From the NCBI GenBank assembly GCA_021780355.1, contig JAJXYX010000031.1:1-48890 (forward strand): a stretch of DNA of 48,890 bases, written 5' to 3'. Positions 17,028 to 37,949 of this stretch are shown here, in pieces. The translations under genes and the position numbers were made by a program. Position 1 is the stretch's first letter; each line of letters opens with the position of its first letter. This stretch comes from a bacterium (GTDB taxonomy: Bacteria > Chlamydiota > Chlamydiia > Chlamydiales > SM23-39). Below the pieces are notes generated by a model, which saw only the letters and a list, made by a program, of their open reading frames with translations, did no database searches and was not told the origin of the DNA.

Positions 17028-17049
17028 TTTCTTTCTCACAATCAAACTC

Positions 17050-17214: not shown

Positions 17215-17301
17215 AGAGTAAAAAATAAAACGGCTTCGGAAAACAAGAGATGAGCGTAAACCCAAAAGATTTGCGCTCATCCTAGAAATTTATTAAAAAT
17301 A

Positions 17302-17478: not shown

Positions 17479-17494
17479 TTTATCTCCTATTATC

Positions 17495-17824: not shown

Positions 17825-18284
17825 ATCAAATCCCTTTTATACAAACAATATTTTATTTCAGGCCATTTTTTCCATTTCATCGAAAACGGCACAAAACCCG
17901 AAATGATTCATACCCAAAGGTTAAAATAATTTTTTGTTAAAAGCAAGAAATAATTGAAAAATTCTGAAAATATTTTTCTTGCAGGACTCAAAATGAAACA
18001 TGATTTAAAAGACGATAACATTTGAAATAAAGAAGCGCCTTTCAAGGCGCGCTTTATGAAAAAAGCGCCGAGGCTAAGTACCGTTACCGTTACCGTTGCA
18101 TCCAAAACCTCATAACCCATTCATTATCAACAAAAAGAATCTCCCATAGATAGGGATATACCCCCCAAGAGCTAGGGATATAAGTAACGAGAGGTAGGGA
18201 AAGCGCAAAGATCTAGTTTTATGCTCCAGATAGAAGTGGATTAACTCCATTACAAACAGCCGCAGTCAAAAAAACAAAGGGATT
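17825..18284. other. Gene-free stretch with direct repeats and a hairpin
   Basis: No convincing gene. It holds a perfect hairpin GCGCCTT-TC-AAGGCGC at 18035-18050, three copies of TACCGT in tandem at 18079-18096, and the direct repeat TAGGGATATA at 18151 and 18173 with a shorter TAGGGA at 18195, spaced exactly 22 bp. This spacing is that of plasmid iterons, and the stretch lies just downstream of the dnaB operon and upstream of the ribbon-helix-helix pair. It may be an operator set or a small second iteron cluster; three partial copies are weak evidence. Confidence 0.4.
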
Positions 18285-18328
18285 CTCAAGGGCGACAGCC
18301 CTTGAGCGCGGGTTTGGGCGGAGCCCAA
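18285..18328 (-). terminator. Double-hairpin terminator of the dnaB operon
   Basis: Read on the minus strand after the stop at 18332: hairpin TTGGGC-TCC-GCCCAA (18328-18314), a short ACCCGCG linker, hairpin CTCAAGGGC..GCCCTTGAG (18306-18285), then a T-rich run. The same two-hairpin plan with a different stem sequence occurs at 40071-40114 and 40407-40449. Confidence 0.7.
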
Positions 18329-18331
18329 GGA

Positions 18332-19879: not shown

Positions 19880-21309
19880 TTCAATAAGGGATGTGTCGTT
19901 TCTCGAGAAGAAGAGCGGGTAGGATAAAAAGCCTCCTTCACCGCTTTTTGATTTGTCTCTTTGGAAGCAGCGCCAAACTTTCCACATTTGCCATCAAACT
20001 GCAAAAGAAATGACGGCAAGCCCCCCCCATTTCGATTTTTAGCCACGATGATTTCTGCCATTCCAGGTTTATCTTGAGGGTTATAATAATCTCCCCTTTG
20101 CACGAAGAGCACAACATCGCTATCTTGCTCAATTTGTCCGCTATCTCTTAGATCGCTCATCATCGGCCTGTGCCCCTGCCGTTCTTCTACTTTTCTCGAA
20201 AGCTGAGAAATGCAAATAAAAGGAGTTTTGAGCTCCATCGCAAGCAGCTTCAAGCGCCGAGAAATTTCAGCGACTTCATATTGACGGCTTTCCGATCGGC
20301 CTCCCCCTTGCATCAGCTGGAGATAGTCGATGACATAAAGGGCGACATCTTCCTCCTCTTTAAGCCGACGCGCTTTCGTGACCATTTGTGTAATGGTTGA
20401 GCAATTTTGGTCGTGAACAAACAGTTTAGCGGAACGCAAAACCTCTTCTTCTTCTCTCAGTTTGCGAAAATCTACATCGGAAAGAGCGCCCCTTTTAATT
20501 TTTTCTCCAGCTATATTGGTTCTTAATGAAAGAAATCTTTCCACTAGCTGGTCTGCTCCCATTTCCAAAGAAAACATCGCGACCGGCTTTCTCTGTTCCA
20601 GACAAACATGATTGATGATATTGATCGCAAGAGCCGTTTTTCCCATGGCGGGCCTCGCCGCAATCACCACCAAATTCGTCTCTTCCAAAATCGTCGTTTC
20701 CCGATCCAATTCGACAAACCCAGTAGGAATCCCTGTCATAAAAGGTTTTCCAACTTGTTGATAATATTGCTGCCGCTCTTCAATCCGCTCAATCAAAGGA
20801 ATCGGGTCGATCCTCGATTTCGCCCCCGATAAAATTTCTCCAATCGAAGCCTTTTCACTCGAAGAATATCTTTTCCCTAATCCGGCTAGCTTTCGATGAT
20901 ATTTCTCCGCCAACTCATTCGGATCTGAAGGATCCGTCAAAAACTCTTTTCTCCCTTCTTCTAAAATGAGGTACGCCTGCCTGCTGTAGGTTTTGGCTTT
21001 TAAAATTTCTATGTATTCATGCACATGGGCAGACGTACCTGCGAATTGAGCTAAATCTGTGAGATAAGCGACTCCTCCCGCAGTTTGCAGTTGAGAGCTC
21101 ATCTTTAATTCTTGGGCCGTTAAATGGATATCCGCCGGCTTTCCCTTGCGGGCGAGACTTTTCAACGCTTGGAAAATAATTTGATGCTCAAGGAAATAAA
21201 AATCCTCGCTGTCCAAAGCTGAACTTGCCGTATTGAGCGCAAAGCGGCTGGACAACATACATCCAAGAACCATCATTTCAGAGTCTTTACAATGAGGAGT
21301 CGATATCAC
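19876..21309 (-). CDS. dnaB: Replicative DNA helicase, DnaB family (pGP1-D role)
   Basis: 477 aa. The N-terminal domain (about residues 5-100) has the DnaB primase-interaction pattern (EMMVLGCML, FYFLEHQIIFQALKSL). The RecA-like motor begins with GIPTGFVELD, then VVIAARPAMGKTALAIN (Walker A), MFSLEMGADQLVER (H1a), LYVIDYLQLMQGGG (Walker B) and FICISQLSRKVEERQGHRPM (motif H3), followed by LRDSGQIEQDSD and an RNGGG arginine-finger-like end. Such helicases unwind DNA at the replication fork; chlamydial plasmids encode one as pGP1. The start is chosen as GTG 21309, 5 nt after AGGTGG, in place of GTG 21318, which would lie on the ribosome site itself. It is coupled to the 515-aa gene. Confidence 0.9.
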   Translation of the reverse strand: MISTPHCKDSEMMVLGCMLSSRFALNTASSALDSEDFYFLEHQIIFQALKSLARKGKPADIHLTAQELKMSSQLQTAGGVAYLTDLAQFAGTSAHVHEYIEILKAKTYSRQAYLILEEGRKEFLTDPSDPNELAEKYHRKLAGLGKRYSSSEKASIGEILSGAKSRIDPIPLIERIEERQQYYQQVGKPFMTGIPTGFVELDRETTILEETNLVVIAARPAMGKTALAINIINHVCLEQRKPVAMFSLEMGADQLVERFLSLRTNIAGEKIKRGALSDVDFRKLREEEEVLRSAKLFVHDQNCSTITQMVTKARRLKEEEDVALYVIDYLQLMQGGGRSESRQYEVAEISRRLKLLAMELKTPFICISQLSRKVEERQGHRPMMSDLRDSGQIEQDSDVVLFVQRGDYYNPQDKPGMAEIIVAKNRNGGGLPSFLLQFDGKCGKFGAASKETNQKAVKEAFYPTRSSSRETTHPLLK

Positions 21310-21751
21310 AATTTCCACCTAAATTTTCGAGTATTTTTATCATCTTATTTCACACCGAGCTTGTTGGGCTGCAAGACCTTTCGGCTCGGTTTGCTTATTT
21401 CTGTGTATCACACCATTTTTGCAAAAATTCCTATATATATGCAAACAACTCATCAAGAAATATTTAAGCTGACGTAAAATTGCAAAGATTTTGCAAAGAA
21501 AAATTTCAACTTTTCTCGGGAAGATCGATAAAAAAATCCACATATTTATAGATAAAACTCATTTTATATAGATAAAAAACTAACAAATAGAGTGCTTGTT
21601 ATTTTTTAAACCCATGTATATATATAACTTTGTCAAACATACCTGCCATTCATCAATAAACAACATTTAAACACGTTTAAAAAAACAACAATCACAAAGA
21701 ATGATTATTTATTAAAAAGATGCTTTAGTTGTTTAATTTTAAGGTAAAAAA
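21310..21751. promoter_or_regulatory. A+T-rich divergent promoter region of dnaB and the first giant gene
   Basis: 442 bp without a gene, strongly A+T-rich in its second half. A candidate promoter for the giant gene is TTGTTA at 21596-21601, a 17-bp spacer, and TATATA at 21619-21624, giving an untranslated leader of about 120 nt that ends in AAGG before the ATG. Several ATATAT and TTTAAA tracts suggest easily melted DNA. No regulatory protein site can be named. Confidence 0.4.
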
Positions 21752-24700
21752 ATGAGCCACAAGATTCCTGTCACTCCTCTTCCTAGTTCCAGTTTAGCTT
21801 CCTTTTCAATCAATGCAGACGTGGGATCCATCACTGTCTCTGGCGCTTTTTCCCTTTTAGGAAATGGCATATGCAGCACATTTACAAGCGGCTCTGCTGT
21901 CTATGTTACGGGGACGGCTTCAAGTACAAATCTCACGATTGATGCCGACTTAGGCCAGGCGAGTCCTTTAGGCGGCATCTTAAATTTCATCGCACCTATG
22001 CAGCCCAATAGCTTTGTCTTTATCTCGGGAACAGGAAATACGATTACAGTGGCTACGACGGTTGTTCCTCCTTCGTTGGGAGGAACGGGTCTTACCTCGC
22101 TCACGCAAAATGCCATTCTTTATGGAGACGGGAGCAATCCTGTCGGTCTTATTCTTCCAGGAACTAACGGACAAGTGCTTTTAGGCTCCACTTTTGGCCC
22201 TCCTCGATTTGGAACAATTACTTCAACAGGAGGGACGCTAAGTTTTACATCAGGGCTGAACTCTTTGAATATAGAGGCCAATTTTTTTGGGAGCTCATTT
22301 TTTAATCCCTTGCAGCCAGGCTCCGGAGGGACTGGGCGGACAGTTTTGACCTCTCATGGGGTGATCATTGGCGAGGGTTCCAATGCTGTGGACGTGACAG
22401 CTCCTGGCACCAATGGCCAGGTCTTGATTGCAGCGACTGGAAAAGATCCTAAATTTTCGACCATCACTTCGACAGGAAATACAATCACATTTACCCCCGG
22501 CCCCAATACATTAGCGATGGACGTCAATTGGTCAAAGCTCCCTAACTCCCAGCCGATACCAGTTGCAGAAGGAGGCACGGGGAGAACGGTTCTCACCGGG
22601 TATGGCGTTCTCATTGGAGAAGGATCAAATCCTGTCAATGTCACAGCGCCTGGAACAAATGGCCAAGTTCTCATCGCCTCTTCTAATGCAGATCCAGCCT
22701 TTGCAACGATTACCTCTTTAAGCAATACAGTCACATTCACCTTTGGGCCGAACTCTTTAAATATCGATGTGAATTTCTCTAACGTCTCATTTGCCTCGCA
22801 TGTATTTCCTGTCAGCGGCGGAGGAACGGGTCTCACTGTGTTGACCGCTTATGGCGTATTGATTGGAGAAGGCTCGCAAAATGTGCAGGGGTTGGCTCCA
22901 GGAACCAACGGACAGGCTTTATTAGGATCTTCTATCGGCGATCCAGCTTTCGCCACAATCACCTCGACAGGCGGTACGCTGACCTTTTCTTTCGGGCCTC
23001 ATTCGCTCAACATCGATGTCAATCTCCAAAACAGTTTCTTTAGTCCGTTAAATCCAGGTTCCGGCGGTACAGGCCAGACTGTGCTTACAGCGTATGGCGT
23101 GCTGATCGGCGAAGGATCTCTCAAAATCAATGTAGTTCCTGCAGGAACCAACGGCCAGGCTCTTTTAGGTTCTTCGACCGGGGATCCTCTATTTGCTACG
23201 ATTACCTCGACAGGCAATACTTTGACCTTTTCTTTTGGGCCCAACGCCTTAAATATCGATATTAATTTCGGAAACACCCTCTTTAATCCTCTCCCTGTAT
23301 CTTCTGGAGGAACAGGGCAAACTGTTTTGACATCGTATGGCATCTTGATTGGCGAAGGGTCTGGCGCTATCCATGTGACGCCTCCTGGAACAGATGGACA
23401 AGTGCTCATCGCCGCCACAAATGCCGACCCCAAATTTGCAACGATCAGCTCGACGGGAAATACAGTGACCTTTGTTTACGGTCCCAATGGCCTGAACATG
23501 GATATTAATTTCAACACGGTGAGCTTTTTTCATATTTTCACAGTCGGAAGCGGAGGCACGGGGCGCACCTTGCTCACAACCTATGGCGTTTTAGTGGGAG
23601 AAGGGTCGAATGGAATCAATGCTATTGTCCCAGGAACAGATGGACAAGTGCTCATCGCCGCTACAAACGCCGATCCGAAATTTGCTACGATTACTTCATC
23701 TGGCCTAACGCTTACGTTTACCTATGGCCCCCATTTTTTAAGCATCGATGCTGTGAATACGACAGGCATTGCCTTCGTGGCCAATAGTGGAGTCGCCGTT
23801 CCCAGCAGCAACGTAGTCAACATTTTTGGCGACGATCCTTTAACGACAGTTGGCACAGTGTCCGTTTTCACGGTTGAAATCAATACAACGGGTTCTTTTT
23901 TCAATCCTTTGCAGCCAGGCTATGGTGGGCTTGGTCAAACTATTTTGACAACCTATGGCGTATTAATTGGCGAAGGGCCCTTAGGCGTCGATGTGACGGC
24001 GGCCGGAACAGATGGGCAAACTCTCATTGCAGCGACCGGCGCAGACCCTCAATTTGCTACGATCACCTCTCTTCAAAACACGCTGAGTTTTATAGCAGGA
24101 CATAATTCTTTAAACCTCGATGTCAATTTAGGCGGGATTCCGAACTTTAATCCTGTTCCCCCTTCGAATGGAGGCGTAGGACAAACCATCTTGACCGCTT
24201 ATGGGGTATTAATCGGCGAGGGATCTAACAGCGTTCATGTCACCGCCGCAGGCACTGACGGGCAGACCCTCATCGCAGCCACTGGCATGGATCCTCAATT
24301 TTCCACCATCACATCGATGAGCAATACGATCAATTTTACAGCGGGGCATCACTCTTTGAACCTCGATGTCAATTTATCGGCCGTGACTTTATTCAATCCA
24401 TTGCCTGTGCCAGATGGGGGTCTCGGCAATACCTTGCTCACCGTTTATGGAGTCCTCATCGGCGAAGGGTCTCTCGGGGTGCAAGCGGCTGCAGCAGGCA
24501 CCGATGGACAAGCTTTTTTAGCAGCAACTGGAGCCAATCCAGCCTTTTCAACGATCACCTCATTGGGAAATACGCTCACTTTTACCTTTGGGCACCACTC
24601 TTTAAACATAGACGCTAATTTAAGTTCTCTCAATTCTATCGTTTTACCTGTTAGCGGAGGAAGCACAGGCATATCTCTCCTCACAGCTTATGGCGTGCTC

Positions 24701-26227
24701 ATTGGAGAAGGCTCTCTCCCCATTGATGTATCAGCGGCGGGAACGGACGGCCAAGTGCTTCTTTCCGCGACAGGAGCAGATCCTGCTTTTGCTACGATTA
24801 CCTCCATGGGAGGAACGTTAAGTTTTACGTATGGACACAATTCGCTCAATTTAGAGATCAATTTCAATAGCAGCTTCTTTAATCCTCTCTCGCCAGCTAG
24901 CGGAGGCACAGGATTGACCGTGCTGACGACGTACGGCGTTCTCATTGGGGAGGGCTCTCTTGATGTCAATGTCACAGCGCCTGGAACAGACGGCCAGGCT
25001 TTGATTGCTGCGACAGGCGCAGATCCTAGTTTTGCTACGATTACATCAGCTTTAGGCACGCTGACTTTTAAAGTCGGGCATAATTCGCTGAATATCGAGA
25101 TCAATTTAAGCAGCCCTTTGATCAATCCATGGCCCGTTCCCACAGGCGGTACGGGAGAGGCCTTTTTAACAGCCCACGGTGTCATCATTGGAGAAGGAGC
25201 TCTTCCTGTCAACGTCACAGCAGCAGGAACAGATGGACAAGCGCTGATCGCTTCTTCAGCTGGAGATCCGAAGTTTTCTACGATCTCTTCTGTCGGCTCT
25301 ACGATTCTTTTCACTGCTGGCCACGATTCTTTGAACATGGATATTAATCCTTCAAGTCTACCCAATCCGCTTCTTGTCCCCAATGGGGGCACAGGATTTA
25401 CTTCTGTCACTCCATATGCTGTTTTATGCGCAGGGGCGAATCCTACGGATCCTCTTCTCAGCGTTGTCCCCATTGGGACAATCGGCCAGGTCCTCACAAG
25501 CAACGGCCCTAGCGCGTTGCCTAGTTTTCAAAATGCGGCTGTACCGATTGGATTTTCTCAAATCAACATCCAAACCTTCACATCAAACGGCACTTATACA
25601 CCGACGCCGGGCCTTCGTTATTGCACAGTTTATTGCGTTGGAGGAGGAGGAGGAGGAGGAAGCCTGCCACCAAACGCCAATAATGCGACCGCGGGAGGCG
25701 GCGGGGGCGGTGGTTATTCACAAGGCACATTCTCGGCAGCTACCATAGGAGCGAGCCAGCCCATTACAATTGGAGCTGGAGGCCCCGCTGGAACCCCCGT
25801 TGGAAGCGCGGGAGGAACGACCTATTTCGGCCCTTCTCTCTCGCCCCTCTTGCAGGCTACCGGCGGAGGAGGCGGAAATTATGTGAACTTTAGTTCTCCT
25901 AATCAAGGAATCGCCCTCGGCGGGGCTGCAGGAGTAGGCTCTTTGGGAACTCTCAACTCTCCAGGACAACCAGGATCTCTCGGTTGGGGACTCAATGATG
26001 CGGCAGAACAAGTTGCAAGTATAGGAGGAGCAGGGGGGAACTCCTTTTTCGCCTCAGGAGGAGGACAGGTGACAAGCAACCAGCAATCTACCTCCACCAG
26101 CCCCGGGTTGGATGGAACGGGACCTGGCGCCGGCGGTGGAGGAGCCTCTACAGTCTTCAACTCATCCACCACAACGCCTGGAGGAGACGGGGTCGCCGGA
26201 GCGGTTTATATTACAGAATATATTTAA
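21752..26227 (+). CDS. Giant 82-aa-repeat protein 1 with Gly-rich C-terminal domain
   Basis: 1491 aa. It opens MSHKIPVTPLP, without a Sec signal peptide. An N-terminal module (to about residue 110, ending GGILNF) and one degenerate repeat precede twelve 82-aa repeats of the form GGTGxTxLTxxGVLIGEGS, VxVTAxGTDGQxLIAATGAD, PxFATITS, LxFTxGxxSLNIDVN. Repeats 1-6 and 7-12 are separated by a spacer module (about residues 667-713) that resembles the N-terminal module. After the last degenerate repeat (LTSNGPSALPSFQ) comes a 200-aa Gly-rich domain beginning FTSNGTYTPTPGLRYCTVYC. The repeats look like beta-structure fibres and the Gly-rich end resembles phage tail-fibre tips. Type III or another export route is possible. 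RBS AAGG; first of three tandem paralogues. Confidence 0.85.
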   Translation: MSHKIPVTPLPSSSLASFSINADVGSITVSGAFSLLGNGICSTFTSGSAVYVTGTASSTNLTIDADLGQASPLGGILNFIAPMQPNSFVFISGTGNTITVATTVVPPSLGGTGLTSLTQNAILYGDGSNPVGLILPGTNGQVLLGSTFGPPRFGTITSTGGTLSFTSGLNSLNIEANFFGSSFFNPLQPGSGGTGRTVLTSHGVIIGEGSNAVDVTAPGTNGQVLIAATGKDPKFSTITSTGNTITFTPGPNTLAMDVNWSKLPNSQPIPVAEGGTGRTVLTGYGVLIGEGSNPVNVTAPGTNGQVLIASSNADPAFATITSLSNTVTFTFGPNSLNIDVNFSNVSFASHVFPVSGGGTGLTVLTAYGVLIGEGSQNVQGLAPGTNGQALLGSSIGDPAFATITSTGGTLTFSFGPHSLNIDVNLQNSFFSPLNPGSGGTGQTVLTAYGVLIGEGSLKINVVPAGTNGQALLGSSTGDPLFATITSTGNTLTFSFGPNALNIDINFGNTLFNPLPVSSGGTGQTVLTSYGILIGEGSGAIHVTPPGTDGQVLIAATNADPKFATISSTGNTVTFVYGPNGLNMDINFNTVSFFHIFTVGSGGTGRTLLTTYGVLVGEGSNGINAIVPGTDGQVLIAATNADPKFATITSSGLTLTFTYGPHFLSIDAVNTTGIAFVANSGVAVPSSNVVNIFGDDPLTTVGTVSVFTVEINTTGSFFNPLQPGYGGLGQTILTTYGVLIGEGPLGVDVTAAGTDGQTLIAATGADPQFATITSLQNTLSFIAGHNSLNLDVNLGGIPNFNPVPPSNGGVGQTILTAYGVLIGEGSNSVHVTAAGTDGQTLIAATGMDPQFSTITSMSNTINFTAGHHSLNLDVNLSAVTLFNPLPVPDGGLGNTLLTVYGVLIGEGSLGVQAAAAGTDGQAFLAATGANPAFSTITSLGNTLTFTFGHHSLNIDANLSSLNSIVLPVSGGSTGISLLTAYGVLIGEGSLPIDVSAAGTDGQVLLSATGADPAFATITSMGGTLSFTYGHNSLNLEINFNSSFFNPLSPASGGTGLTVLTTYGVLIGEGSLDVNVTAPGTDGQALIAATGADPSFATITSALGTLTFKVGHNSLNIEINLSSPLINPWPVPTGGTGEAFLTAHGVIIGEGALPVNVTAAGTDGQALIASSAGDPKFSTISSVGSTILFTAGHDSLNMDINPSSLPNPLLVPNGGTGFTSVTPYAVLCAGANPTDPLLSVVPIGTIGQVLTSNGPSALPSFQNAAVPIGFSQINIQTFTSNGTYTPTPGLRYCTVYCVGGGGGGGSLPPNANNATAGGGGGGGYSQGTFSAATIGASQPITIGAGGPAGTPVGSAGGTTYFGPSLSPLLQATGGGGGNYVNFSSPNQGIALGGAAGVGSLGTLNSPGQPGSLGWGLNDAAEQVASIGGAGGNSFFASGGGQVTSNQQSTSTSPGLDGTGPGAGGGGASTVFNSSTTTPGGDGVAGAVYITEYI

Positions 26228-26257
26228 GACAAAGTTTTGCAGATTAAGGACAATACC

Positions 26258-29200
26258 ATGAGCCATAAGATTCCAGTCACTTTCATCCCTTCTGAATCAG
26301 GAGCGGGATTTACGATCACGACAGATGCAGGATCCGTCTCGGTTTCCGGCTCTGTTTTTTTATTAGGAGCTGGAATATGCACAACCTCGGCCAGTGCGTC
26401 CAGCGTCTTTATCGCAGGAAGCGCCGGTGGCTCTTCTTCTCTTCTTTTTGTCTGCAACGCGGGAACCGCTTCTCCGACCAATACAATTTTACAAATCACA
26501 ACCCCTTCCACCTCGCAGCAATTTCTCAAAACGACAGCCACTGGCAATACAGTCTATTTTAACAGCGAGCTCGTTTCCGTCTCCGCTGGAGGAACGGGAC
26601 TCTCTTCATTAACACAAAACAACCTTCTCCTTGGCGAAGGAACAGCTCCCGTTGGGTTTCTCCCCTTTGGAACCGATGGGCAGACACTTCTTGCCGCAAC
26701 TGGCGGTGCGCCAGTTTTTGGAACGATTACGTCTTCCGGAAAATCAATTCTATTTACTCCTGGCCCCAATTCTTTAAATATCGAAATCAATCCAAACAGC
26801 AGCAGTTTTTTCAACATGCTGCCGGTGAACCAGGGAGGAACAGGACTCTCTTTGTTAACAGTCTACGGAGTGCTGATTGGGGAAGGCACCCTTCCCATCC
26901 ATGTTTCTCCTCCAGGAACAGATGGGCAGGCGTTCATAGCGTCCTCTCTCGGAGATCCCTTTTTCTCCACCATCGCCTCTCCTCTAGGGACGCTCACTTT
27001 TACTTTTAGTCCGAATGCTCTCAATATCGAGGTGAATTTCTTTTCTAATTCCTATTCTTTGCCGGTAGGAAGCGGCGGAACGGGGAACACTTTACTGACC
27101 GCCTTTGGCGTTCTGATTGGAGAAGGATCGCTGCCTCTGCACACCACTGCCGCTGGAACGGATGGACAGCTCTTGATCGCATCGACGGGAAACGATCCTC
27201 AATTTCATACCGTCACCTCGACAGGAGGAAGCATTGTATTTACAGCCGGTCCCAATACACTGAATATGGAGATCAGCGACGCTGGTCTTACCTTTTCACA
27301 GCCTCTCCCTGTGAGCCTCGGCAGTACTGGGCGCTCGTTTTTAACAGCCTATGGCGTGCTGATCGGTGAAGGCTCTCTCCCTGTGAATGTCACAGAAGCA
27401 GGAACGGATGGGCAGATCTTTTTAGCCTCCTCGATTGGAGACCCAGCCTTTGCCACCCTTTCGTCTACAGGAGGCACCGTCACATTTTCTCTCGGACCTA
27501 ATTCTCTCAATCTCGATGTCAATCTTTTCGGCTCGACTTTTTTCAATCCGATTCCAGTCAACAATGGTGGTTTAGGGCGCACGATTTTCACAACCTATGG
27601 CGTAGTGATCGGAGAAGGCTCGCTCCCTGTCGACGTCTCGCCTCCTGGAACGAACGGACAAGTTTTTTTAGCCGCCTCCCTTGCAGATCCGGCCTTTGCG
27701 ACCCTTTCGTCTACAGGAGGGACAATCACTTTCTCTTTTGGTCCGAATTCTCTCAATCTCGACGTCAACTTATTCGGCAGCACATTTTTTACCCTCATAC
27801 CGGTCAGCAATGGAGGTTTTGACCAGACCATTTTGACAACCTATGGGGTTGTGATTGGCGAGGGCTCTCTTCCTGTCAACGTCACAGCGCCTGGAACGAA
27901 TGGACAAACGCTCATCTCCGCTACATCTGCAGATCCCGCTTTTGCAACCATCACATCGACCGGAAACACGATTCTTTTTACAGCCGACTATAATAGTTTA
28001 AATGCCGACATCAACTGGTCTGGCATTCCTAATTTCAATCCTGTTCCCGTCGGCAGCGGCAGTACAGGACAAACTCTTTTAACATCTTTTGGCGTGCTGA
28101 TTGGAGAAGGTTCTTTAGGAGTCGATGTCACAGCTGCTGGCACAGATGGGCAAGTATTTGTTGGGGCGACGGGAGCAGATCCAGCTTTCACCACGCTCTC
28201 TTCTAATACAAATACGATTAATTTCACTGAAGGCCCTCGTGGGCTAAATATCGAAGCTGGAAATAGTACGGGCATTATCATTGACGCCAATACTGGAACT
28301 GCTTTTCCTGTTCTCGAGACGTTATCCATCCTAGGCGGCGATTCTGTTTTCACAGTAGGATCTAACTCTACCGTTACGATCCAGGTCAATTTGGCCAGCG
28401 GATCTTTTTTCAATCCACTGCCTCCTGGAACGGGCAGCACAGGCAGAACCGTTTTAACGACCCACGGCGTCCTCATCGGAGAGGGTTCTTTGCCGGTCAA
28501 TGTCACAGCGCCAGGAACCAACGGACAAACTCTCTTAGCTTCTTCCACAGGAGATCCTAAATTCTCGACGCTGACCTCATCCGGAGGCACGCTCACCTTT
28601 ACTTTCGGCCCCCATTCCTTAAACATCGAGGTCAACTGGCGCAGCGGCAGTTTTTTCATCGGCCTTCCAATCAGCAATGGAGGAACTGGAAGGACGGTCC
28701 TTACCACCTATGGCGTGCTCATTGGAGAAGGCTCTCTTCCCATCGACGTCTCGCCTGCCGGAACAAATGGACAAATCCTTCTCGCTTCGTCGACGGGGGA
28801 TCCTTTTTTTGCAACCATCACTTCTTCGGGCAATACCTTATCGTTCACATTCGGAGTCAACCAATTGAATATGAATGTCAATTGGTCCGCTCTTTTCAAT
28901 CCTTTGCCTGTCATCTATGGAGGAACTGGGCAAACGGCTTTGACGGCGCATGGCGTGCTGATCGGGGAGGGGACGGCAGGCATCCATGGCGCGAGCGCGG
29001 GGACCAATGGACAAGTTTTACTCGGCTCATCGACTGGAGATCCTTTCTTTGCCACCATCACTTCGACGGGGAACACCTTGACCTTTACCTTCGGGCCCAA
29101 TTCGCTCAATGTCGATTTGATTTGGACTAGCCTCACGCTCTTTAATCCTCTGCAGCCAGGTTCCGGCGGAACGGGGGTCACGGTACTCACCACTCATGGA

Positions 29201-30742
29201 GTTTTACTTGGCGAAGGCTCTCTTGCCGTTCACGTATCGGCTCCAGGAACGAACGGTCAGCTCTTCATTGCTTCAAGCACTGGAGATCCTAAATTTTCCA
29301 CGGTCACATCAACTGGCAATACGATGACGTTTACGTTCGGACCTAATTCGCTGAACATGGAGGTCATTTGGAAAGGGAAAACATTTTTTACTCCTATCCA
29401 AATCAACAATGGCGGAACGGGAAGAACTGTTTTAACTGCCCATGGCGTCCTTATCGGAGAAGGATCCCTTCCGGTGCATGTCGCTGCAGTGGGAACAAAT
29501 GGTCAGGCCTTACTTGCCTCTTCCATTGGGGATCCCAAATTTTCTACCATTACGTCTACAGGCAATACGATCACATTCACATTCGGACCCGATTCGTTAA
29601 ATATGGACATGGTGATCGCAGGAAAAACGTATTTCAATCCGCTTTTAGTGGTATCTGGAGGTACGGGACGTACAGTGTTGACCACTTACGGAGTGCTTTT
29701 AGGAGAGGGCTCTTCAAGAATCAACGTGACTGCTGCAGGAACTAACGGACAAGCGCTTCTCGGCTCTTCCACCGGAGACCCTGTATTTTGGACCATCACG
29801 TCAACTGGCAATACATTGACATTCACCTTTGGCCCCAACTCTTTAAATATTGATATCGCCCTCACCAGCAACACCCTTTATTTCCCATGGCCTGTGAGTT
29901 TAGGAGGAACGAGCAATACATCAGAAGCTCCTTATCTTGTGATCTGCGGCGGAACGACATCCACTAGCGCGCTCCAAACTGTGCCTGAAGCCGGTTCTCC
30001 TGGATTTATCCTCACAAGCAATGGACCTGGAACTTTACCCAGTTTTAAAGGAAACGGGATTACTCAACTCAATGTGGTCACTTTTTCTTCAAGCGGGACC
30101 TATATTCCTTCGACTGGCATGCAATATTGCACGGTCGAGTGCGTAGGCGGCGGCGGCGGCAGTGGAGGTATGGATGGAAACATTGCGAATGAAGCGAGCG
30201 GCGGCGGCGGCGGCGGCGGCTATGCCATTAAAACATTTTCCTATGTTTCGGTCTCTCCTCAACAATCAGTCACCGTCGGCAGCGGCGGCCTTGCTGGTTC
30301 TGCGACAGGCGGCGACGGAGGAGCTGGAGGGACAAGCTCTTTTGGATTTTTATTAGCAGCAACAGGAGGACTTGGCGGCGCCGGTGTTGTATCCAGCAGC
30401 TTGCACACGAATCCTAACCCTCCTGGAGGGACCGGAGGCCAAGGCATTTCAGGAGATTTAAACATCGCAGGACAAAATGGCATTAGCGGATGGTTTCAAT
30501 CAGCAATTATTGCCGAAGGATCCCCTATCTTTGGCGGAGGTGGAGGGTGTTCTCATTTTGGAGGAGGCGGAGCCGGCGGAGTCCTTTGTCCTTTTAACAA
30601 CCCGCCCTTAATCATATCTCCAGGGGGCAACGGAACCTTTGTGGGAGGAGGAGCCGGAGGACCTGCCGGGCAAGGACTCTCAACGGGAGTAAGCGGATCT
30701 TCTGGAGGAGCCGGCATCGTGATCATTACGGAATATCTCTAA
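26258..30742 (+). CDS. Giant 82-aa-repeat protein 2 with Gly-rich C-terminal domain
   Basis: 1494 aa from the ATG at 26258 (AAGGA 8 nt upstream); a TTG seven codons earlier is not needed. It has the same plan as its upstream neighbour: MSHKIPVTFIP start, N-terminal module, a degenerate repeat, six 82-aa repeats, a spacer module starting near residue 667 (GNSTGIIIDANTGTAFPVLE), six repeats, LTSNGPGTLPSFKG, and a Gly-rich tail (YCTVECVGGGGGSGG...). The tail holds a (GGC)7 run at 30200-30220. It starts 30 bp after gene 1 and so is co-transcribed. The conserved Cys near residue 44 (GAGICTTS) and the C-terminal YCTVEC motif are shared with gene 1. Function unknown; probably a surface or secreted fibre. 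Confidence 0.85.
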   Translation: MSHKIPVTFIPSESGAGFTITTDAGSVSVSGSVFLLGAGICTTSASASSVFIAGSAGGSSSLLFVCNAGTASPTNTILQITTPSTSQQFLKTTATGNTVYFNSELVSVSAGGTGLSSLTQNNLLLGEGTAPVGFLPFGTDGQTLLAATGGAPVFGTITSSGKSILFTPGPNSLNIEINPNSSSFFNMLPVNQGGTGLSLLTVYGVLIGEGTLPIHVSPPGTDGQAFIASSLGDPFFSTIASPLGTLTFTFSPNALNIEVNFFSNSYSLPVGSGGTGNTLLTAFGVLIGEGSLPLHTTAAGTDGQLLIASTGNDPQFHTVTSTGGSIVFTAGPNTLNMEISDAGLTFSQPLPVSLGSTGRSFLTAYGVLIGEGSLPVNVTEAGTDGQIFLASSIGDPAFATLSSTGGTVTFSLGPNSLNLDVNLFGSTFFNPIPVNNGGLGRTIFTTYGVVIGEGSLPVDVSPPGTNGQVFLAASLADPAFATLSSTGGTITFSFGPNSLNLDVNLFGSTFFTLIPVSNGGFDQTILTTYGVVIGEGSLPVNVTAPGTNGQTLISATSADPAFATITSTGNTILFTADYNSLNADINWSGIPNFNPVPVGSGSTGQTLLTSFGVLIGEGSLGVDVTAAGTDGQVFVGATGADPAFTTLSSNTNTINFTEGPRGLNIEAGNSTGIIIDANTGTAFPVLETLSILGGDSVFTVGSNSTVTIQVNLASGSFFNPLPPGTGSTGRTVLTTHGVLIGEGSLPVNVTAPGTNGQTLLASSTGDPKFSTLTSSGGTLTFTFGPHSLNIEVNWRSGSFFIGLPISNGGTGRTVLTTYGVLIGEGSLPIDVSPAGTNGQILLASSTGDPFFATITSSGNTLSFTFGVNQLNMNVNWSALFNPLPVIYGGTGQTALTAHGVLIGEGTAGIHGASAGTNGQVLLGSSTGDPFFATITSTGNTLTFTFGPNSLNVDLIWTSLTLFNPLQPGSGGTGVTVLTTHGVLLGEGSLAVHVSAPGTNGQLFIASSTGDPKFSTVTSTGNTMTFTFGPNSLNMEVIWKGKTFFTPIQINNGGTGRTVLTAHGVLIGEGSLPVHVAAVGTNGQALLASSIGDPKFSTITSTGNTITFTFGPDSLNMDMVIAGKTYFNPLLVVSGGTGRTVLTTYGVLLGEGSSRINVTAAGTNGQALLGSSTGDPVFWTITSTGNTLTFTFGPNSLNIDIALTSNTLYFPWPVSLGGTSNTSEAPYLVICGGTTSTSALQTVPEAGSPGFILTSNGPGTLPSFKGNGITQLNVVTFSSSGTYIPSTGMQYCTVECVGGGGGSGGMDGNIANEASGGGGGGGYAIKTFSYVSVSPQQSVTVGSGGLAGSATGGDGGAGGTSSFGFLLAATGGLGGAGVVSSSLHTNPNPPGGTGGQGISGDLNIAGQNGISGWFQSAIIAEGSPIFGGGGGCSHFGGGGAGGVLCPFNNPPLIISPGGNGTFVGGGAGGPAGQGLSTGVSGSSGGAGIVIITEYL

Positions 30743-30778
30743 TTTATAAAAAAATGGCAAAAAAATAAGGACGACATC

Positions 30779-33700
30779 ATGAGCCATAAAATTCCTACCA
30801 CTCTCATCTCTTCTGAAACTTCGAGTTCATTCGAGATCTTCACAGATAGCGGATCCATCACTGTTTCCGGAGCTTTTTTCTTATTGGGAGATGGAGTTGT
30901 CTGCACAACGTTTGCCACTGGCTCAACGATCTTTGTCACAGGGACTGCCGCCAACAATGCTCTTGTGATCCAAGCCGATTCAGGGCAGGCTTCCCCTCTC
31001 GGCGGCATCTTAAATTTTGTAACGCCTCTCTCTGCAACTAATTTAGTCTCCGTTGCAGGATTAGGCAATTCTCTTGCATTAAACGCCGCTCTTGTTGTAC
31101 CTCAGATGGGAGGAACAGGGAATACTTCGCTCACGCAAAATAGTTTGCTTTATGGACAAGGCCTCAGCGGCGTAGGCTTGATTATGGCTGGATCGAATGG
31201 TCAAGTTTTGCTCGGAGCCACGAATGGTGTTCCCTTTTTTGAGACCATCACATCGATCGGCGGCACTTTGACCTTTACCATGGGACAAAACTCGCTCAAT
31301 ATCGACATCAACTTATCTGCCATTACTCTTTTCAATCCTTTGCCTCCCTCGAATGGCGGACTCGGGCAAACCCTTTTGACGGCCCATGGAGTGTTGATTG
31401 GCGAAGGGTCTTTTGGCGTCAGCTCGACCAATGCCGGCACCAACGGTCAGGTTTTACTGGGAGCTACGGGCGGCGATCCTGAATTTGCCACCATTACCTC
31501 ACAAGGAAACACCTTGACATTCACCTTCGGAGTGAACTCCTTAAACGTAGATGTCAATGTGAATAACTTACTCCTCCATCCCATTCCACCGCCAGGCGGC
31601 GGCACGGGGCAAACGACGTTCACAGCGCACGGCGTTCTCCTGGGAGAAGGGGGATCTAGCATCCATGCGACCACTGCAGGAACAAACGGCCAAGTGCTCA
31701 TCGCAGCAACAGGGGCAGATCCTCAATTTGCTAATCTCACTTCAAGCGGAGGAACTCTTAGCTTTATTTTGGGACCTCATTCACTGGATATCGAGGTCAA
31801 TCTGGCAGGCATTACCTTTAATCTCACGACGCTTCCCATCGACCTTGGAGGAACAGGGCAAACCGTATTGACGGTCCACGGAGTGCTCATCGGAGAAGGC
31901 TCTTTAGGCGTTCATGTAACAGCAGCAGGAACAGATGGACAAGCCTTTTTAGGCTCGACAAACAAAGATCCTGCCTTTTCCACCATCACGTCGACAGGAA
32001 ACACGCTGACTTTTACCTTCGGGCACAACTCGCTCAATATCGACATCAATTTCAATAGCACCCTCTTTCATCCTATCTCTCCAGGAAGCGGAAGCACAGG
32101 CCAAACGCTCTTCACGGCCCATGGCGTCCTCATTGGCGAAGGATCGCTCGGCGTCGTAGCCATAGCTGCCGGAACAGACGGACAATTGCTACTAGCCTCA
32201 ACTCTAGGTAATCCAGCGTTTGCCACCATCACTTCTACAGGAGGGACGCTCACATTTAGGTTCGGCCATCATTCCCTTAATATGGATATCAATTTCGCAA
32301 GCAGTTTCTTCCATCCTTTTCCTCCAGGGACAGGCAGCACAGGACGCACAGTTCTCACTGCGCATGGAGTTATCATCGGTGAAGGATCTCTTCCAGTCGA
32401 TGTCACAGCCGCTGGAACAAACGGACAAATTTTACTCGCCTCCGCCACAGGAGATCCTTTGTTTTCGAGAATCACATCCACTGGCGGCACTCTCACATTT
32501 CAAGCGGGACCTAACTCTCTCAATATCGATGTCAACGTGGGACTGATCACCTTTTTTAATATCTTGCAAGTGAGCAATGGGGGAACAGGTTTAACTGTGC
32601 TTACATCCCATGGAATTTTGATTGGAGAAGGATCTTCCTCTATCCATGTGACGCCGGCGGGAACTAATGGACAGCTATTCCTTGGAGCGACAGGAGCGGA
32701 CCCTCAATTTGCCACAGTTACCTCCACAGGAAACACGCTGACTTTTACATTTGGCCCCAACTCACTGAATATCGATATCGTCCAAACTCATCCCCTCTTG
32801 ATTTTGGCCACCACGGGAACGGCTACTCCAGCCGGAGGGTTTTTAAATCTTTTGGGAAGCACGCCGATCACCACCATCGCGTCTGGATCGACGCTCAACA
32901 TCCAACTGGATACAAGTGGTACATTTTTCAATCCAGTACAAGTGAAAAATGGAGGGACAGGAGTTTCCATCTTAACAACCTACGGCGTACTTATCGGGGA
33001 AGGATCGAACAGCGTACACGTCACTTTGCCAGGAACAGACGGGCAACTCCTTCTGGGGACGACAGGAGCCGACCCTCAATTTGCCACCATCACCTCGATA
33101 GGCCAAACTCTAAGTTTCACTGTGGGACCCAACACCTTAGACATCAATATCAACCCCTCTCAAATGACCTATCCTACTCCTCTTCCTATTTTCGATGGGG
33201 GGCTAGGACGTACTGTCTTGACACTATATGGCGTTTTGCTTGGCGAAGGTTCTTTGCCCGTCCATGTAACGGCAGCAGGAACAAATGGCCAAGTCCTCAT
33301 CGCAGCTACGAACGCGGATCCTAAATTTGCTACCATTACCTCTTCAGGAAGAACGCTCACTTTTATCGCTGGCCCCAATACGCTCAATATCGAAATTAGT
33401 TTATCAATCACGCTGCCTGCTGTTTTCCCTGTATCGCAAGGGGGAACAGGAAGAACTGTTTTAACGACCTATGGCGTACTGATCGGCGAGGGCAGCGGTC
33501 TCGTCAATGTGACAGCGCCTGGAACGGATGGACAAGCTCTCATTGCCGCAACGGGGCTTGATCCCAAATTTGCAACCATCTCCTCGACGGGAGGCACATT
33601 CAGTTTCTCTTTCGGGCCCAATTCGCTAAACATGGAAATCAGTTTATCGGGCGCCACAGGATTCGGTCCCATTCCTGTCAGCAATGGAGGCACAGGGGTT

Positions 33701-35281
33701 TCAGTCCTCACCGCCTATGGCGTTCTTCTTGGAGAGGGCTCTAAGTCCGTTCATGTCACACCTGCAGGAACCAGCGGCCAAGCTCTCCTGGCTGCCACAG
33801 GATTAGATCCCCTATTTGCCACCATCTCGTCCACAGGGGGCACCCTTGCTTTCTTAGCTGGTCCGAATGCGCTCAATATCGACGCTAGTTTTTCCGGATC
33901 CTTTTTCAATGGGTTTCCGCCAGCGAATGGAGGAACCGGCCGAAGCCTTCTCACAGCCTATGGCGTGCTGATTGGAGAAGGGTCTCGCAGCATCAATGTG
34001 AGCGCAGCCGGAACCAACGGGCAAATTTTTCTAGGATTGACCAATGCAGATCCCGCATTCGCCACGATCTCATCTACGGGCAGAACGATGATGTTTACAC
34101 CAGGCCCGAATGCTCTGGCCATCGATGTAAATATTCTCAACGGAGGTTTTGTCTTCCCTGTAAGCAAAGGCGGAACAGGGCAGACGACCCTTACTGCTTA
34201 TGGCGTTCTCATCGGAGAAGGATCTTTGACCCTCCATACAACAGCGGCGGGAACGGATGGGCAAATCCTCATCAGCTCCTCAACGGGAGATCCAGCTTTC
34301 GCCACGATCTCTTCAACTGGAAATACCATCGCCTTTACAGCTGGCAACAATAGTTTAAATCTCGAAACGAACCTTTCTAATTATTTTTCCCCGTTGCAAG
34401 TCAGCCAAGGAGGAACAGGGGACACATCTTTCTCTCCAGCTTACGCTGTAATTTGCGGTGGAGCGACAAGCACATCAGCCTGGCAACCCGTCGCTTCAGC
34501 GGGCTCTGCAGGCCAAGTCCTCACCAGCAATGGACCTGGAGTCTTGCCTAGTTTTCAAAATCCAACGATTGTCACCTCTTTTACGCAAGTGAGCGTACAA
34601 AACTTTTTGACAAGCGGCATCTATAATCCCTCTCCCAATATGCGCTATGTCACCTTTGAGTGCATCGGAGGAGGAGGAGGAGGAGGAGGAGCTACCGCGA
34701 ATGCGGCCTTATTTGGCGTCGGAGGAGGAGGAGGCGGCGGCGGCTACTGCAAAGGAACATTCCCCTACACAGCGATCACAGGTCCCCAAATCATCAACAT
34801 TGGAGCTGGCGGTTTGGGAGGCACCAACCAAGGAACTCCCGGATCTTCAGGAAACAACACCAGCATAGGTGTTTTAATGACTGCGCAAGGTGGAAGCGGA
34901 GGTCAAAGCGCAAGTATCGTTTACCCTCGCAATGCAAATAATGCGGGCGTGACTACAGGGGGAGCGGGAGGCGTCGGATTTCCTGGCAGTTTTGTCAATC
35001 TCATCGCCACAGGACAGCCAGGATCAGCCGGTATTGGAAGTATCGACACTAACGAATATAATATGTCTATCAGCGGGGCGGGAGGAAGCTCTTATTTTCA
35101 AGCAGGCGCCTCATCTGTTGGCGCACTGTCAGGAAGCTCTACTCCAGGAAATAATGGAGTTGCGAGTGGTGCAGGAGGAGGCGGAGCTGCCAGCACAACG
35201 GACGGCACAATTGCCGCTACAGGAGCTGCCGGCGGCAACGGAGCTGCTGGAACTGTCATCATCACCGAATATCTTATTTAA
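30779..35281 (+). CDS. Giant 82-aa-repeat protein 3 with Gly-rich C-terminal domain
   Basis: 1500 aa; ATG with AAGGA 7 nt upstream, 36 bp after gene 2. MSHKIPTTLIS opens it. Six 82-aa repeats, a spacer module near residue 667 (THPLLILATTGTATPAGGFL), six more repeats, LTSNGPGVLPSFQ and a Gly-rich C-terminal domain of about 230 residues follow. That domain includes VTFECIGGGG and a (GGA)8 run at 34667-34690, where the usual Cys of YCTV is Val. The individual repeats differ enough in DNA that the frame is clearly under selection. A long hairpin follows at 35321-35357 as a likely operon end. Confidence 0.85.
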   Translation: MSHKIPTTLISSETSSSFEIFTDSGSITVSGAFFLLGDGVVCTTFATGSTIFVTGTAANNALVIQADSGQASPLGGILNFVTPLSATNLVSVAGLGNSLALNAALVVPQMGGTGNTSLTQNSLLYGQGLSGVGLIMAGSNGQVLLGATNGVPFFETITSIGGTLTFTMGQNSLNIDINLSAITLFNPLPPSNGGLGQTLLTAHGVLIGEGSFGVSSTNAGTNGQVLLGATGGDPEFATITSQGNTLTFTFGVNSLNVDVNVNNLLLHPIPPPGGGTGQTTFTAHGVLLGEGGSSIHATTAGTNGQVLIAATGADPQFANLTSSGGTLSFILGPHSLDIEVNLAGITFNLTTLPIDLGGTGQTVLTVHGVLIGEGSLGVHVTAAGTDGQAFLGSTNKDPAFSTITSTGNTLTFTFGHNSLNIDINFNSTLFHPISPGSGSTGQTLFTAHGVLIGEGSLGVVAIAAGTDGQLLLASTLGNPAFATITSTGGTLTFRFGHHSLNMDINFASSFFHPFPPGTGSTGRTVLTAHGVIIGEGSLPVDVTAAGTNGQILLASATGDPLFSRITSTGGTLTFQAGPNSLNIDVNVGLITFFNILQVSNGGTGLTVLTSHGILIGEGSSSIHVTPAGTNGQLFLGATGADPQFATVTSTGNTLTFTFGPNSLNIDIVQTHPLLILATTGTATPAGGFLNLLGSTPITTIASGSTLNIQLDTSGTFFNPVQVKNGGTGVSILTTYGVLIGEGSNSVHVTLPGTDGQLLLGTTGADPQFATITSIGQTLSFTVGPNTLDININPSQMTYPTPLPIFDGGLGRTVLTLYGVLLGEGSLPVHVTAAGTNGQVLIAATNADPKFATITSSGRTLTFIAGPNTLNIEISLSITLPAVFPVSQGGTGRTVLTTYGVLIGEGSGLVNVTAPGTDGQALIAATGLDPKFATISSTGGTFSFSFGPNSLNMEISLSGATGFGPIPVSNGGTGVSVLTAYGVLLGEGSKSVHVTPAGTSGQALLAATGLDPLFATISSTGGTLAFLAGPNALNIDASFSGSFFNGFPPANGGTGRSLLTAYGVLIGEGSRSINVSAAGTNGQIFLGLTNADPAFATISSTGRTMMFTPGPNALAIDVNILNGGFVFPVSKGGTGQTTLTAYGVLIGEGSLTLHTTAAGTDGQILISSSTGDPAFATISSTGNTIAFTAGNNSLNLETNLSNYFSPLQVSQGGTGDTSFSPAYAVICGGATSTSAWQPVASAGSAGQVLTSNGPGVLPSFQNPTIVTSFTQVSVQNFLTSGIYNPSPNMRYVTFECIGGGGGGGGATANAALFGVGGGGGGGGYCKGTFPYTAITGPQIINIGAGGLGGTNQGTPGSSGNNTSIGVLMTAQGGSGGQSASIVYPRNANNAGVTTGGAGGVGFPGSFVNLIATGQPGSAGIGSIDTNEYNMSISGAGGSSYFQAGASSVGALSGSSTPGNNGVASGAGGGGAASTTDGTIAATGAAGGNGAAGTVIITEYLI

Positions 35282-35724: not shown

Positions 35725-35821
35725 CTGGCAGAGCCATTAAAGTTGTATTAATTAGTCGGCTTAAAATGTAATTATATTGTATATACTATTGTCGTCTGAA
35801 AAACATTTTAATGGTGTCCTT

Positions 35822-36892
35822 GTGTCGATTTGTTTGAATATGATTGTGAAAGATGAGAGAGACGTCATCATTCGCTGCCTCACCTCTGCGCGGGCGATTG
35901 TAGATTACTGGGTCATTGTAGATACGGGATCTACTGATGGAACGCAAAAGCTTATTCAAGAATGCCTAAAGGATATTCCGGGCGAGCTCTATGAGAGGCC
36001 TTGGGTGCATTTTGAGCATAATCGCAATGAAGCTCTTGGGTTGGCCCGGGGGAAAGCTAATTATGTTTTGTTTATGGACGCCGACGAGACATTGGTCATA
36101 GCTTCTTGTTTTCATCCATCTCAGCTTGGCTTGGATGGCTACAAAGTGCGACTGATCGAGAGAAGTTTCACGGATGTTTATCGGATTTGTTTGATTAAAA
36201 ATGATCCTTGTTGGTTTTGGAAAGGCGTCATCCATGAAGCTTTGTATGCTTCTCGGCCTGTGTCGGTAGGCCTATTGGAATCTTTGGAGAAACAAGCTTC
36301 GTCAGAAGATGGAAAGCGGACGCAAGATCCTAAAAAATTTGAAAAAGATGCAGTCATTTTAGAAAAGGCGCTCGCCTTAGAACCTGAAAATAGCCGCTAT
36401 ACTTTTTATCTAGCTCAAAGCTATGGCAATGCAGGCCAATACCTCGATTCTTTGGCCTGGTATCAGAAACGAACGGAGATGGGAAACGACCCCGAAGAGG
36501 TGTTTTGGTCCTTTTATTGCATGGGCATGATCCATCAGCACATAAAATCCGATCCTTCTCGATGGATAGATAGCTATACGAAAGCGCATCAAGCCGACTC
36601 GAGCCGCGCAGAGCCTTTGTTTCAGCTGGCTCGTTTTTTTTACGACTCCGGCCAGCCTCTCATCAGCTACGCATGCGGCAAAATCGCTTCATCTCTCGCG
36701 AAACCTGAATGCGCTATGTATTGCCATGCTTGGGTTTATGATTATGCAGCTGATTTTGTCTTCGCCCAAGCGGCAGATGATCTTGGGTTAAAAAAAGAAG
36801 CTTTGCCCGTTTATCACAAATTGCTCTCCCGCCCTATTCCAGAGGACATGCGGCAATGGATTGAGACGGCGGCTGCTAGGATTTTTCTATGA
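35822..36892 (+). CDS. TPR-GT2 glycosyltransferase, type A (first of operon)
   Basis: 356 aa from GTG 35822 (MSICLNMIVKDERDVIIRCL). The frame also opens with TTG at 35777, but the GTG gives the N-terminus shared with the paralogues; no strong ribosome site is seen for either. The GT2 domain shows ICLNMIVKDER, WVIVDTGSTDGTQKLIQE and LFMDADETL with the DxD site. It is followed by RSFTDVYRICLIKNDPCWFW and KGVIHEAL, then TPR-like helices including EEVFWSFYCMGMIHQHIKSD. It is the first gene of a four-gene operon and overlaps the next by 4 bp. The acceptor is unknown; the neighbouring giant proteins are candidates. Confidence 0.8.
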   Translation: MSICLNMIVKDERDVIIRCLTSARAIVDYWVIVDTGSTDGTQKLIQECLKDIPGELYERPWVHFEHNRNEALGLARGKANYVLFMDADETLVIASCFHPSQLGLDGYKVRLIERSFTDVYRICLIKNDPCWFWKGVIHEALYASRPVSVGLLESLEKQASSEDGKRTQDPKKFEKDAVILEKALALEPENSRYTFYLAQSYGNAGQYLDSLAWYQKRTEMGNDPEEVFWSFYCMGMIHQHIKSDPSRWIDSYTKAHQADSSRAEPLFQLARFFYDSGQPLISYACGKIASSLAKPECAMYCHAWVYDYAADFVFAQAADDLGLKKEALPVYHKLLSRPIPEDMRQWIETAAARIFL

Positions 36893-37941
36893 AGATTTGC
36901 TTGAATATGATCGTAAGAAATGAAGCGCGTGTGATCAAGCGATGCTTGTCTTCTGTAAAACATCTGATCGATTACTGGGTGATCGTCGATACAGGGTCGA
37001 CAGATGGAACGCAAGAGCTCATTCGGCAAACGCTTTTGGACATTCCCGGAGAGCTTTTTGAAAGGCCTTGGGTGAATTTTGGCCATAACCGCAATGAGGC
37101 TCTTCAATTAGCCAAAGAGAAGGGGGATTACCTTTTATTTATCGATGCAGATGATTACTTGGTTTTTTCTGATGATTTTCAAATGCCCCGTTTCATCAAA
37201 GATATTTATGTCATCGTGCAGAGAGATGCAGCTACGCAGGTCGAAACGCAGTGTCTTCTTTTAGCCTCGAGCCGTTTATCTTGGCGCTGGGAGGGTGTTG
37301 CGCATGAAGCTCTCGTGTGTCCGGAAAAAACTTCGGGCGCTTTGCTGGGAGGTGTTGTCAATGTGTATGGACAAGATGGTCACCGCTCCCAAAATCCTGA
37401 AAAACATCAGCAAGTCATCGACCTTCTTTTAGAAGAGCAAAAACTTCATCCGACAGATACAAAGTCGATTTTTTATTTGGCTGAAACGTACCGAGGAGCC
37501 AAAAATTATCGTGAAGCTCTCGCTATGTACCGCAAAAGAGCTGCTATGGGAGGGTTTGCCGAGGAGATTTTTTGGTCTTTGTATTCCATTGCAAAACTCG
37601 AAGAAGAGTTGGGAGCCGACCTTTTTCTTTCTGAGTCGCTTTATCTTGAAGCCTACCGGGAGCGCCCTTCGAGAATGGAGCCGATTTATGACTTGGTTCT
37701 TCTATATAGAAAAAATAACGAGTTGATTAAAGCCTACGAGCTAGCTAAAACTCATGCGTCTACCCCCGCACCTCCAGATTTGATTTTTGTCTCCCGCTGG
37801 GTCTACGAGTGGGGGCTTTTATGGCAGTACGCACTTTGCTGTCAGCTCTTAGGCAAAAGCGAAGAGTGCGCAAAAGCTCTCGACTCTCTTGGACAAGTTC
37901 CTTCTCTTCCCTCCTCTTTAAGGCAATTCATGACAAAATAG
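36889..37941 (+). CDS. TPR-GT2 glycosyltransferase, type B
   Basis: 350 aa. MKICLNMIVRNEARVIKRCL, then WVIVDTGSTDGTQELI and LLFIDADDYL are the GT2 motifs, and SRLSWRWEGVAHEAL fits the acceptor side. The helical second half carries TPR-like units (TKSIFYLAETYRGAKNYREA, LAMYRKRAAMG). It ends YALCCQLLGKSEECAKALDS and a short tail. ATG overlaps the previous stop (ATGA) and the next gene starts 9 bp after its stop. In sequence it is closer to the genes at 39008 and 15897 than to its direct neighbours, which are type A. Confidence 0.8.
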   Translation: MKICLNMIVRNEARVIKRCLSSVKHLIDYWVIVDTGSTDGTQELIRQTLLDIPGELFERPWVNFGHNRNEALQLAKEKGDYLLFIDADDYLVFSDDFQMPRFIKDIYVIVQRDAATQVETQCLLLASSRLSWRWEGVAHEALVCPEKTSGALLGGVVNVYGQDGHRSQNPEKHQQVIDLLLEEQKLHPTDTKSIFYLAETYRGAKNYREALAMYRKRAAMGGFAEEIFWSLYSIAKLEEELGADLFLSESLYLEAYRERPSRMEPIYDLVLLYRKNNELIKAYELAKTHASTPAPPDLIFVSRWVYEWGLLWQYALCCQLLGKSEECAKALDSLGQVPSLPSSLRQFMTK

Positions 37942-37949
37942 GAAAAAAC

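Follow-up and report, generated by a model that had tools for sequence, protein, structure and literature searches.

Three tandem fibre genes and their common plan

The stretch of DNA considered here, the first 48,890 nucleotides of a draft contig from a bacterium of the order Chlamydiales (JAJXYX010000031.1; "the window" hereafter), carries three tandem genes, designated A, B and C, whose products are very long, repetitive and built of parts that are homologous to phage tail fibres. The full contig (G000:C42) runs on past the window to a length of 90,402 bp, is interrupted inside repeats by two N gaps, and holds at least nine fibre genes, A to I, of which D starts in the window and E to I lie outside it (Table 1). 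Open reading frames (ORFs) and a hidden Markov model (HMM) of the repeat bear out the original prediction that the three genes follow a common plan of one leading repeat, six repeats, a spacer and six repeats, with the spacer about 2000 bp downstream of each start. The HMM finds 13 full repeats per gene, interrupted by the insertion of ~42 amino acids, and every one of them scores 96-131 bits against the single profile, so that the plan is not a product of chance. Tandem repeats were predicted correctly, but not their exact length of 82 amino acids, as the units vary from 80 to 83. Repeat starts coincide within 3 residues across ~1020 residues in all three proteins. After the last repeat come a degenerate collar and then a C-terminus rich in Gly; the expected LTSNGP collar and Gly-rich end are present in each gene, with PF21722 matches. 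The spacer motif recurs in the N-terminal domains and in F and G. Overall, the fibre proteins are rich in Ser and Thr (22-25%) and poor in charged residues (5-6%).

The ATG of gene B is preceded by TAAGGACAATACC, which makes a longer TTG start at 26237 unnecessary, and similar AAGG-type sites precede the starts of all three genes. The intergenic gaps of 30 bp (A-B) and 36 bp (B-C) are compatible with a single transcription unit, which A, B and C may form; a scan for promoters and terminators gave sites no commoner than in shuffled sequence.

Table 1. Features of the window and further fibre genes of the same contig
Feature	Position	Strand	Remarks
GT25 glycosyltransferase	213-1079	+	
GT11 glycosyltransferase	1082-1993	+	
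Two further transferase-like genes	within 213-3860	+	
HddA-like sugar kinase	4964-5962	+	best match, below equivalog cut-off
HddC-like/mannose-1-P guanylyltransferase-like nucleotidyltransferase	5965-6666	+	best match, below equivalog cut-off
More glycosyltransferases	7642-8514 and 13762-17045	-	
GmhB-like phosphatase	11716-12306	+	below cut-off
GmhA-like isomerase	12310-12912	+	below cut-off
DnaB-neighbour protein	18332-19987	-	no Pfam match
DnaB-type helicase	19876-21318	-	
Gene A, phage-type fibre protein, 1491 amino acids	21752-26227	+	N-terminal domain, 1+6 repeats, spacer, 6 repeats, collar, Gly-rich tip
A, N-terminal anchor module (MSHxIP...)	21752-22060	+	common only to B, C, D
A, leading repeat	22064-22306	+	
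A, first six-repeat block	22307-23776	+	units of 80-83 amino acids; repeat HMM
A, spacer module, ~42 amino acids	23777-23905	+	DxGxAxPxxGxLNxxG type
A, second six-repeat block	23906-25366	+	
A, LTSNGP collar and glycine-rich tip	25367-26224	+	PF21722; Foldseek Pam3/Bxb1; BFVD phage matches
Gene B, 1494 amino acids	26258-30742	+	plan as gene A; ATG 26258, Shine-Dalgarno-like AAGGA
B, N-terminal anchor	26258-26569	+	
B, collar and glycine-rich tip equivalent	29885-30739	+	
Gene C, 1500 amino acids	30779-35281	+	plan as gene A
C, N-terminal anchor	30779-31090	+	
C, collar and glycine-rich tip equivalent	34391-35278	+	
Four tandem GT2-type glycosyltransferases	35777-40066	+	directly downstream of C
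Plasmid maintenance and surface genes	40465-45960	both	
AAA ATPase and partner	within 40465-45960	-	
MOMP-like porin	43018-44364	+	
ParA	44453-45211	+	
pGP6-type UPF0137 protein	45208-45960	+	
Gene D, 5' part in window	46241-48890	+	A-C N-terminus, spacer after one repeat, near-identical repeats, different tip
D, N-terminal anchor	46241-46540	+	
Gene E, gapped	50521-52264		
Gene F, 2510 amino acids	52423-59955		29 repeats, spacer after repeat 11
Gene G, 2517 amino acids	66006-73559		29 repeats, spacer after repeat 11
Gene H	73716-75383		5 repeats
Gene I	75796-78549		9 full repeats

Phage-type shafts and tips on a chlamydial plasmid

The suggestion that these genes encode fibres has been strengthened by the homology of both shaft and tips to phage fibres. 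The Gly-rich ends of A, B and C match PF21722 (E 7.5e-14, 6.7e-11 and 6.1e-10, respectively), and the ends of all three are matched by the tail fibre families phrog_863 (E 4.5e-31 to 1.1e-25) and phrog_6202. A structural model of the collar and Gly-rich tip, of moderate quality with an overall predicted local distance difference test score (pLDDT) of 57, was matched by Foldseek to the tail tip of mycobacteriophage Bxb1 (9d93, E 2.6e-7) and the tail fibre of cyanophage Pam3 (7ypx, E 1e-6), and in BFVD to phage Gly-rich and tail-fibre proteins together with some giant-virus proteins. The shaft repeat is encoded by at least 104 IMG/VR contigs, in one to six copies per ORF in those fetched. There are three tip types in the family, and every complete gene closes with a domain that belongs to a family of phage fibre tips; the D/E/H and F/G/I types match phage contigs with E values down to 5e-28 and 3e-20, and each is present in several to many repeat-bearing phage contigs. 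In gene D the anchor of A to C is joined to the tip type of E and H, and modules have therefore been exchanged within the family.

Shaft and tip profiles had no meaningful match among the sequences in PDB. With gene A as query, DNA and protein searches of collections of phages and plasmids found Rhabdochlamydia porcellionis only, and the A/B/C alignment had no match among the genome contigs. A single repeat as query found, among the same contigs, one from a metagenome-assembled genome (MAG) of another genus in the same family (G019), Deltaproteobacteria, a Paraburkholderia and a Sulfotelmatobacter MAG. Two further identities were considered and rejected: a trimeric autotransporter adhesin of the YadA type, as the Sec-like N-terminus is absent, the C-terminus is Gly_rich_2 and the YadA anchor is unmatched; and fibres of a contractile injection system (tailocin or type VI secretion system subtype iv), as the genome has no match to the PF04984 sheath, although a divergent sheath could escape this search.

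The replicon bears the marks of a chlamydial plasmid, namely a pGP1-type DnaB, ParA/pGP5 and pGP6, the last belonging to UPF0137, which had no match in 14 control genomes. The last 8 kb of the contig hold chromosome-like genes, so the plasmid is possibly integrated. Neither terminase, portal nor capsid was found on the replicon, and the genome as a whole had no match to a phage sheath or an HK97 capsid. The only terminase-profile match in the genome, to phrog_2, is weak (2.1e-6) and was discounted as unspecific, since the profile also matches 11 of the 14 control genomes.

The explanation that we favour, while giving it only an even chance, is that A to C are domesticated phage-type fibres, probably glycosylated, which the bacterium uses as secreted or surface adhesins. 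They would belong to a family of nine or more such plasmid-encoded proteins, presumably trimeric, each composed of an N-terminal anchor, a beta-rich shaft of phage fibre repeats of ~82 amino acids and, at the C-terminus, a binding tip of phage type. The bacterium would produce them without a virion and export or release them, so that they may touch the eukaryotic host or neighbouring microbes.

Alternatively, A to C could serve in the virions of a tailed phage that infects this chlamydia, or of a phage-plasmid, and the accompanying capsid, portal and terminase genes would then either have diverged too far to be recognised or be located on a different contig. Phage-like modules do make up every shaft and tip, and phage gene groups have been published from two chlamydial plasmids (PMC7846284). 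Moreover, contig G119:C388 (L083) of a MAG from the chlamydial order is a tailed phage with a terminase (E 1.8e-46), RecT, a RecE-like exonuclease and the same kinds of fibres; it may be a phage of chlamydiae, and the phrog_24355 tip that it has in common with the R. porcellionis plasmid provides a link from phage to plasmid. We nevertheless regard a virion origin as unlikely, given that no HK97 capsid or sheath was found in the genome and that its only terminase match is weak and unspecific. Further, closed Rhabdochlamydia plasmids possess such fibres without virion genes (the 19.7-kb plasmid of R. porcellionis has several, with no virion genes annotated), and nine or more fibre genes with shafts of up to 29 repeats exceed the sampled phage loci, which have at most six.

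Sugar and glycosyltransferase genes adjoin the fibre genes. The HddA-, GmhA-, GmhB- and nucleotidyltransferase-like genes plausibly constitute a GDP-heptose-type pathway, judging by their profile matches, and together with the glycosyltransferases of the same replicon they would probably glycosylate the Ser/Thr/Asn-rich shafts. One of the four tandem glycosyltransferases downstream of C was scanned and showed the Pfam GT2 domain with weak similarity to SunS, a peptide glycosyltransferase; the other three are alike by sequence. Including one at 15897-17045, there are five GT2-type proteins with long C-terminal parts, and the frames of the tandem four overlap. Where the sugar cassette ends, 12914-13381 on the opposite strand encodes a small protein with a helix-turn-helix-like look and no Pfam match.

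The sugar cassette adjoins fibres in two genera: in G019, too, contigs that encode repeat fibres and Gly-rich fibres also hold sugar and glycosyltransferase genes, and on one of them, a plasmid contig, DnaB, a MOMP-like gene and GT2 accompany the Gly-rich fibres. The 6.9-kb contig of G019 that bears the repeat is identical to JAKBAE010000115.1 from the MAG 'bacterium isolate ZJ1.bin9'. The chlamydial plasmid contig G019:C70 (L042) encodes, at 15402-19448, a fibre protein of 1349 amino acids that has a Gly-rich end and numerous NTAVGxxAL-type repeats (phrog_23837, E 1e-162).

Adjoining nucleotide-sugar genes and products that are very long, repetitive, Ser/Thr-rich and poorly charged would also suit matrix or surface-layer-like structural proteins, intra- or extracellular, that form part of an inclusion or cell coat and have no receptor-binding role. 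This we consider quite improbable, for it leaves out of account the phage fibre tip domains in which the complete genes end, and the use of three tip types.

Repeat number and the question of fixed length

The equal number of repeats in A, B and C had been put forward as a sign that total length is under selection, with two proposed tests, the pairing of repeats by position across genes and the counts in relatives, and neither lends it support. Identity between repeats at the same position is 54.9%, against 56.6% in permuted arrangements (P=0.998; for the individual gene pairs P=0.82, 0.28 and 0.89), and the repeats cluster, if weakly, by gene and not by position, with 12 changes on the tree as opposed to 19.1 when shuffled. 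The leading repeats of the three genes do group together (Shimodaira-Hasegawa-like approximate likelihood-ratio test, 95), and the method is thus able to detect positional homology. As for the relatives, repeat counts of 5, 9, at least 13, 29 and 29 occur on the same contig, and D has the N-terminus of A to C yet departs from their plan. Both outcomes are those that the original prediction had named as arguing against a fixed length.

The history of the arrays is consistent with a simpler origin. Repeat identity in A, B and C is 57.4% within and 56.7% between genes, the near equality that would be expected of a homogeneous array that was triplicated and then diverged in a star-like manner; adjacent repeats are slightly more similar (61%), and synonymous sites among the three genes are saturated or nearly so. 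The arrays of D, H and I must be young, because their repeats are near-identical (synonymous divergence 0.08-0.5). Genes F and G have kept their unit-length register (r=0.96), with a shared order of 75- and 82-amino-acid units, and their sequence register, although weak (P=0.0004), indicates inheritance; between A and C there is a hint of unit-length register (P=0.03). Given the varied counts, the other plan in D and the common order in F and G, the equal counts are best read as the result of duplication, in which a then-homogeneous array would have been copied with the whole gene and later divergence would have halted unequal exchange. Such a course would economically yield equal counts without any selection on length.

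A fibre of fixed length, for example a 1:1:1 heterotrimer of A, B and C whose repeat number is kept by selection, is by comparison very improbable. It would account for equal counts and near-identical cumulative positions despite the state of the synonymous sites, and equal length has occurred twice, in A/B/C and again in F/G with its conserved unit order, which leaves some room for length selection. However, the core repeats are unpaired by position, D shares the anchor and not the plan, and the register of F and G speaks for inheritance. Re-synchronised repeat positions, tried as evidence of length selection, are no more than random sign changes would give and not significant. The two halves of B seemed to echo each other in unit length, but this was also rejected, as the short units stem from gaps at different sites.

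Anchors, export and comparison with known systems

Neither 234 Chlamydiota genomes nor viral contigs yielded a full-length relative of the N-terminal anchor that A to D have in common. In another chlamydial family, a frame of 2055 amino acids (G089:C122, L193) weakly matches the N-terminal domain of the fibres at 1485-1664 (E 7e-5).

Several observations weigh against domesticated adhesins. The repeat is rare, occurring in 6 of the 234 Chlamydiota genomes, and was not found in a genome of the same genus. No export signal, Sec included, was identified in the fibre proteins, and a search for a fibre chaperone likewise had no result; the genome does have a gene for the type III secretion export gate, but a trimer that has already folded would probably not fit through the type III channel. 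The monomer prediction for three repeats of the shaft was unusable (pLDDT 32), the contig has its two scaffold gaps inside repeats, and the 'virion structural protein' matches (phrog_1645) at 78.5-82.2 kb would also fit a virus.

The latter are three tandem proteins of 384-402 amino acids at 78559-82154 (E 1e-42 to 5e-34), with relatives in four other genomes (G023, G025, G112 and G115). Between F and G (59979-65904) lie three tandem Ser/Thr-rich proteins of ~645-701 amino acids, and the two that were scanned had no Pfam or PHROG match. Gene D runs beyond the window and is broken by a gap of 100 N.

Taken more broadly, it is conceivable, at somewhat less than an even chance, that the plasmids of several chlamydial lineages carry sets of phage-type receptor-binding fibres that have been domesticated, are glycosylated by the bacterium itself and can be exchanged. 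Anchors, tips and shafts of 5-29 repeats would be interchangeable, and the fibres would be displayed or secreted for host contact in the absence of a phage particle. Host choice and attachment of environmental chlamydiae, whether to protists or arthropods, are poorly known, and their plasmid cargo is mostly labelled hypothetical. If phage-type fibres are chlamydial adhesins, plasmid exchange would transfer host-contact specificity and module shuffling would be a natural route by which it changes; an obligate intracellular bacterium would thereby have turned the receptor-binding modules of phages toward another partner.

The original prediction knew of no described chlamydial system of this form, and none was found among open-licence papers, which likewise yielded no account of fibres on chlamydial plasmids; the parts, however, are those of phage fibres. 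The plasmids of P. massiliensis and C. sequanensis similarly carry phage genes, but their group includes a terminase and tail tip protein L, and a fibre arsenal was not found described there (PMC7846284). Closer are the Rhabdochlamydia plasmids (NZ_CP075586.1, and the 38.9-kb plasmid of a sister species), chlamydial plasmids likewise with porin, AAA ATPase and ParA, whose fibre-like 'hypothetical proteins' join a single repeat to a D/E/H-type tip, K1-lyase_C tips also occurring. Unlike A to C, these proteins are of ~280 amino acids with one repeat, on a plasmid without an annotated sugar cassette, and the publication on the plasmids names MOMP-like proteins, not fibres (PMC9723776).

Among phages, Pam3 gp24 (PDB 7ypx, 7yfw) and Bxb1 (9d93) resemble A to C in the collar and Gly-rich tip, as matched by Foldseek. 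The Pam3 fibre is a homotrimer with C-terminal TNF-like and Gly-rich domains that are proposed receptor binders (PMC9608196); it differs in its short helical shaft, its docking to a baseplate and its need for the chaperone gp25, whereas A to C have a shaft of ~13 repeats, another N-terminus and no recognised chaperone. The tail-fibre genes of IMG/VR (for example L048, L109, L113 and L137), although restricted to one to six repeats per ORF and without the anchor of A to D, share with the chlamydial family both its repeat profile and its D/E/H and F/G/I tips.

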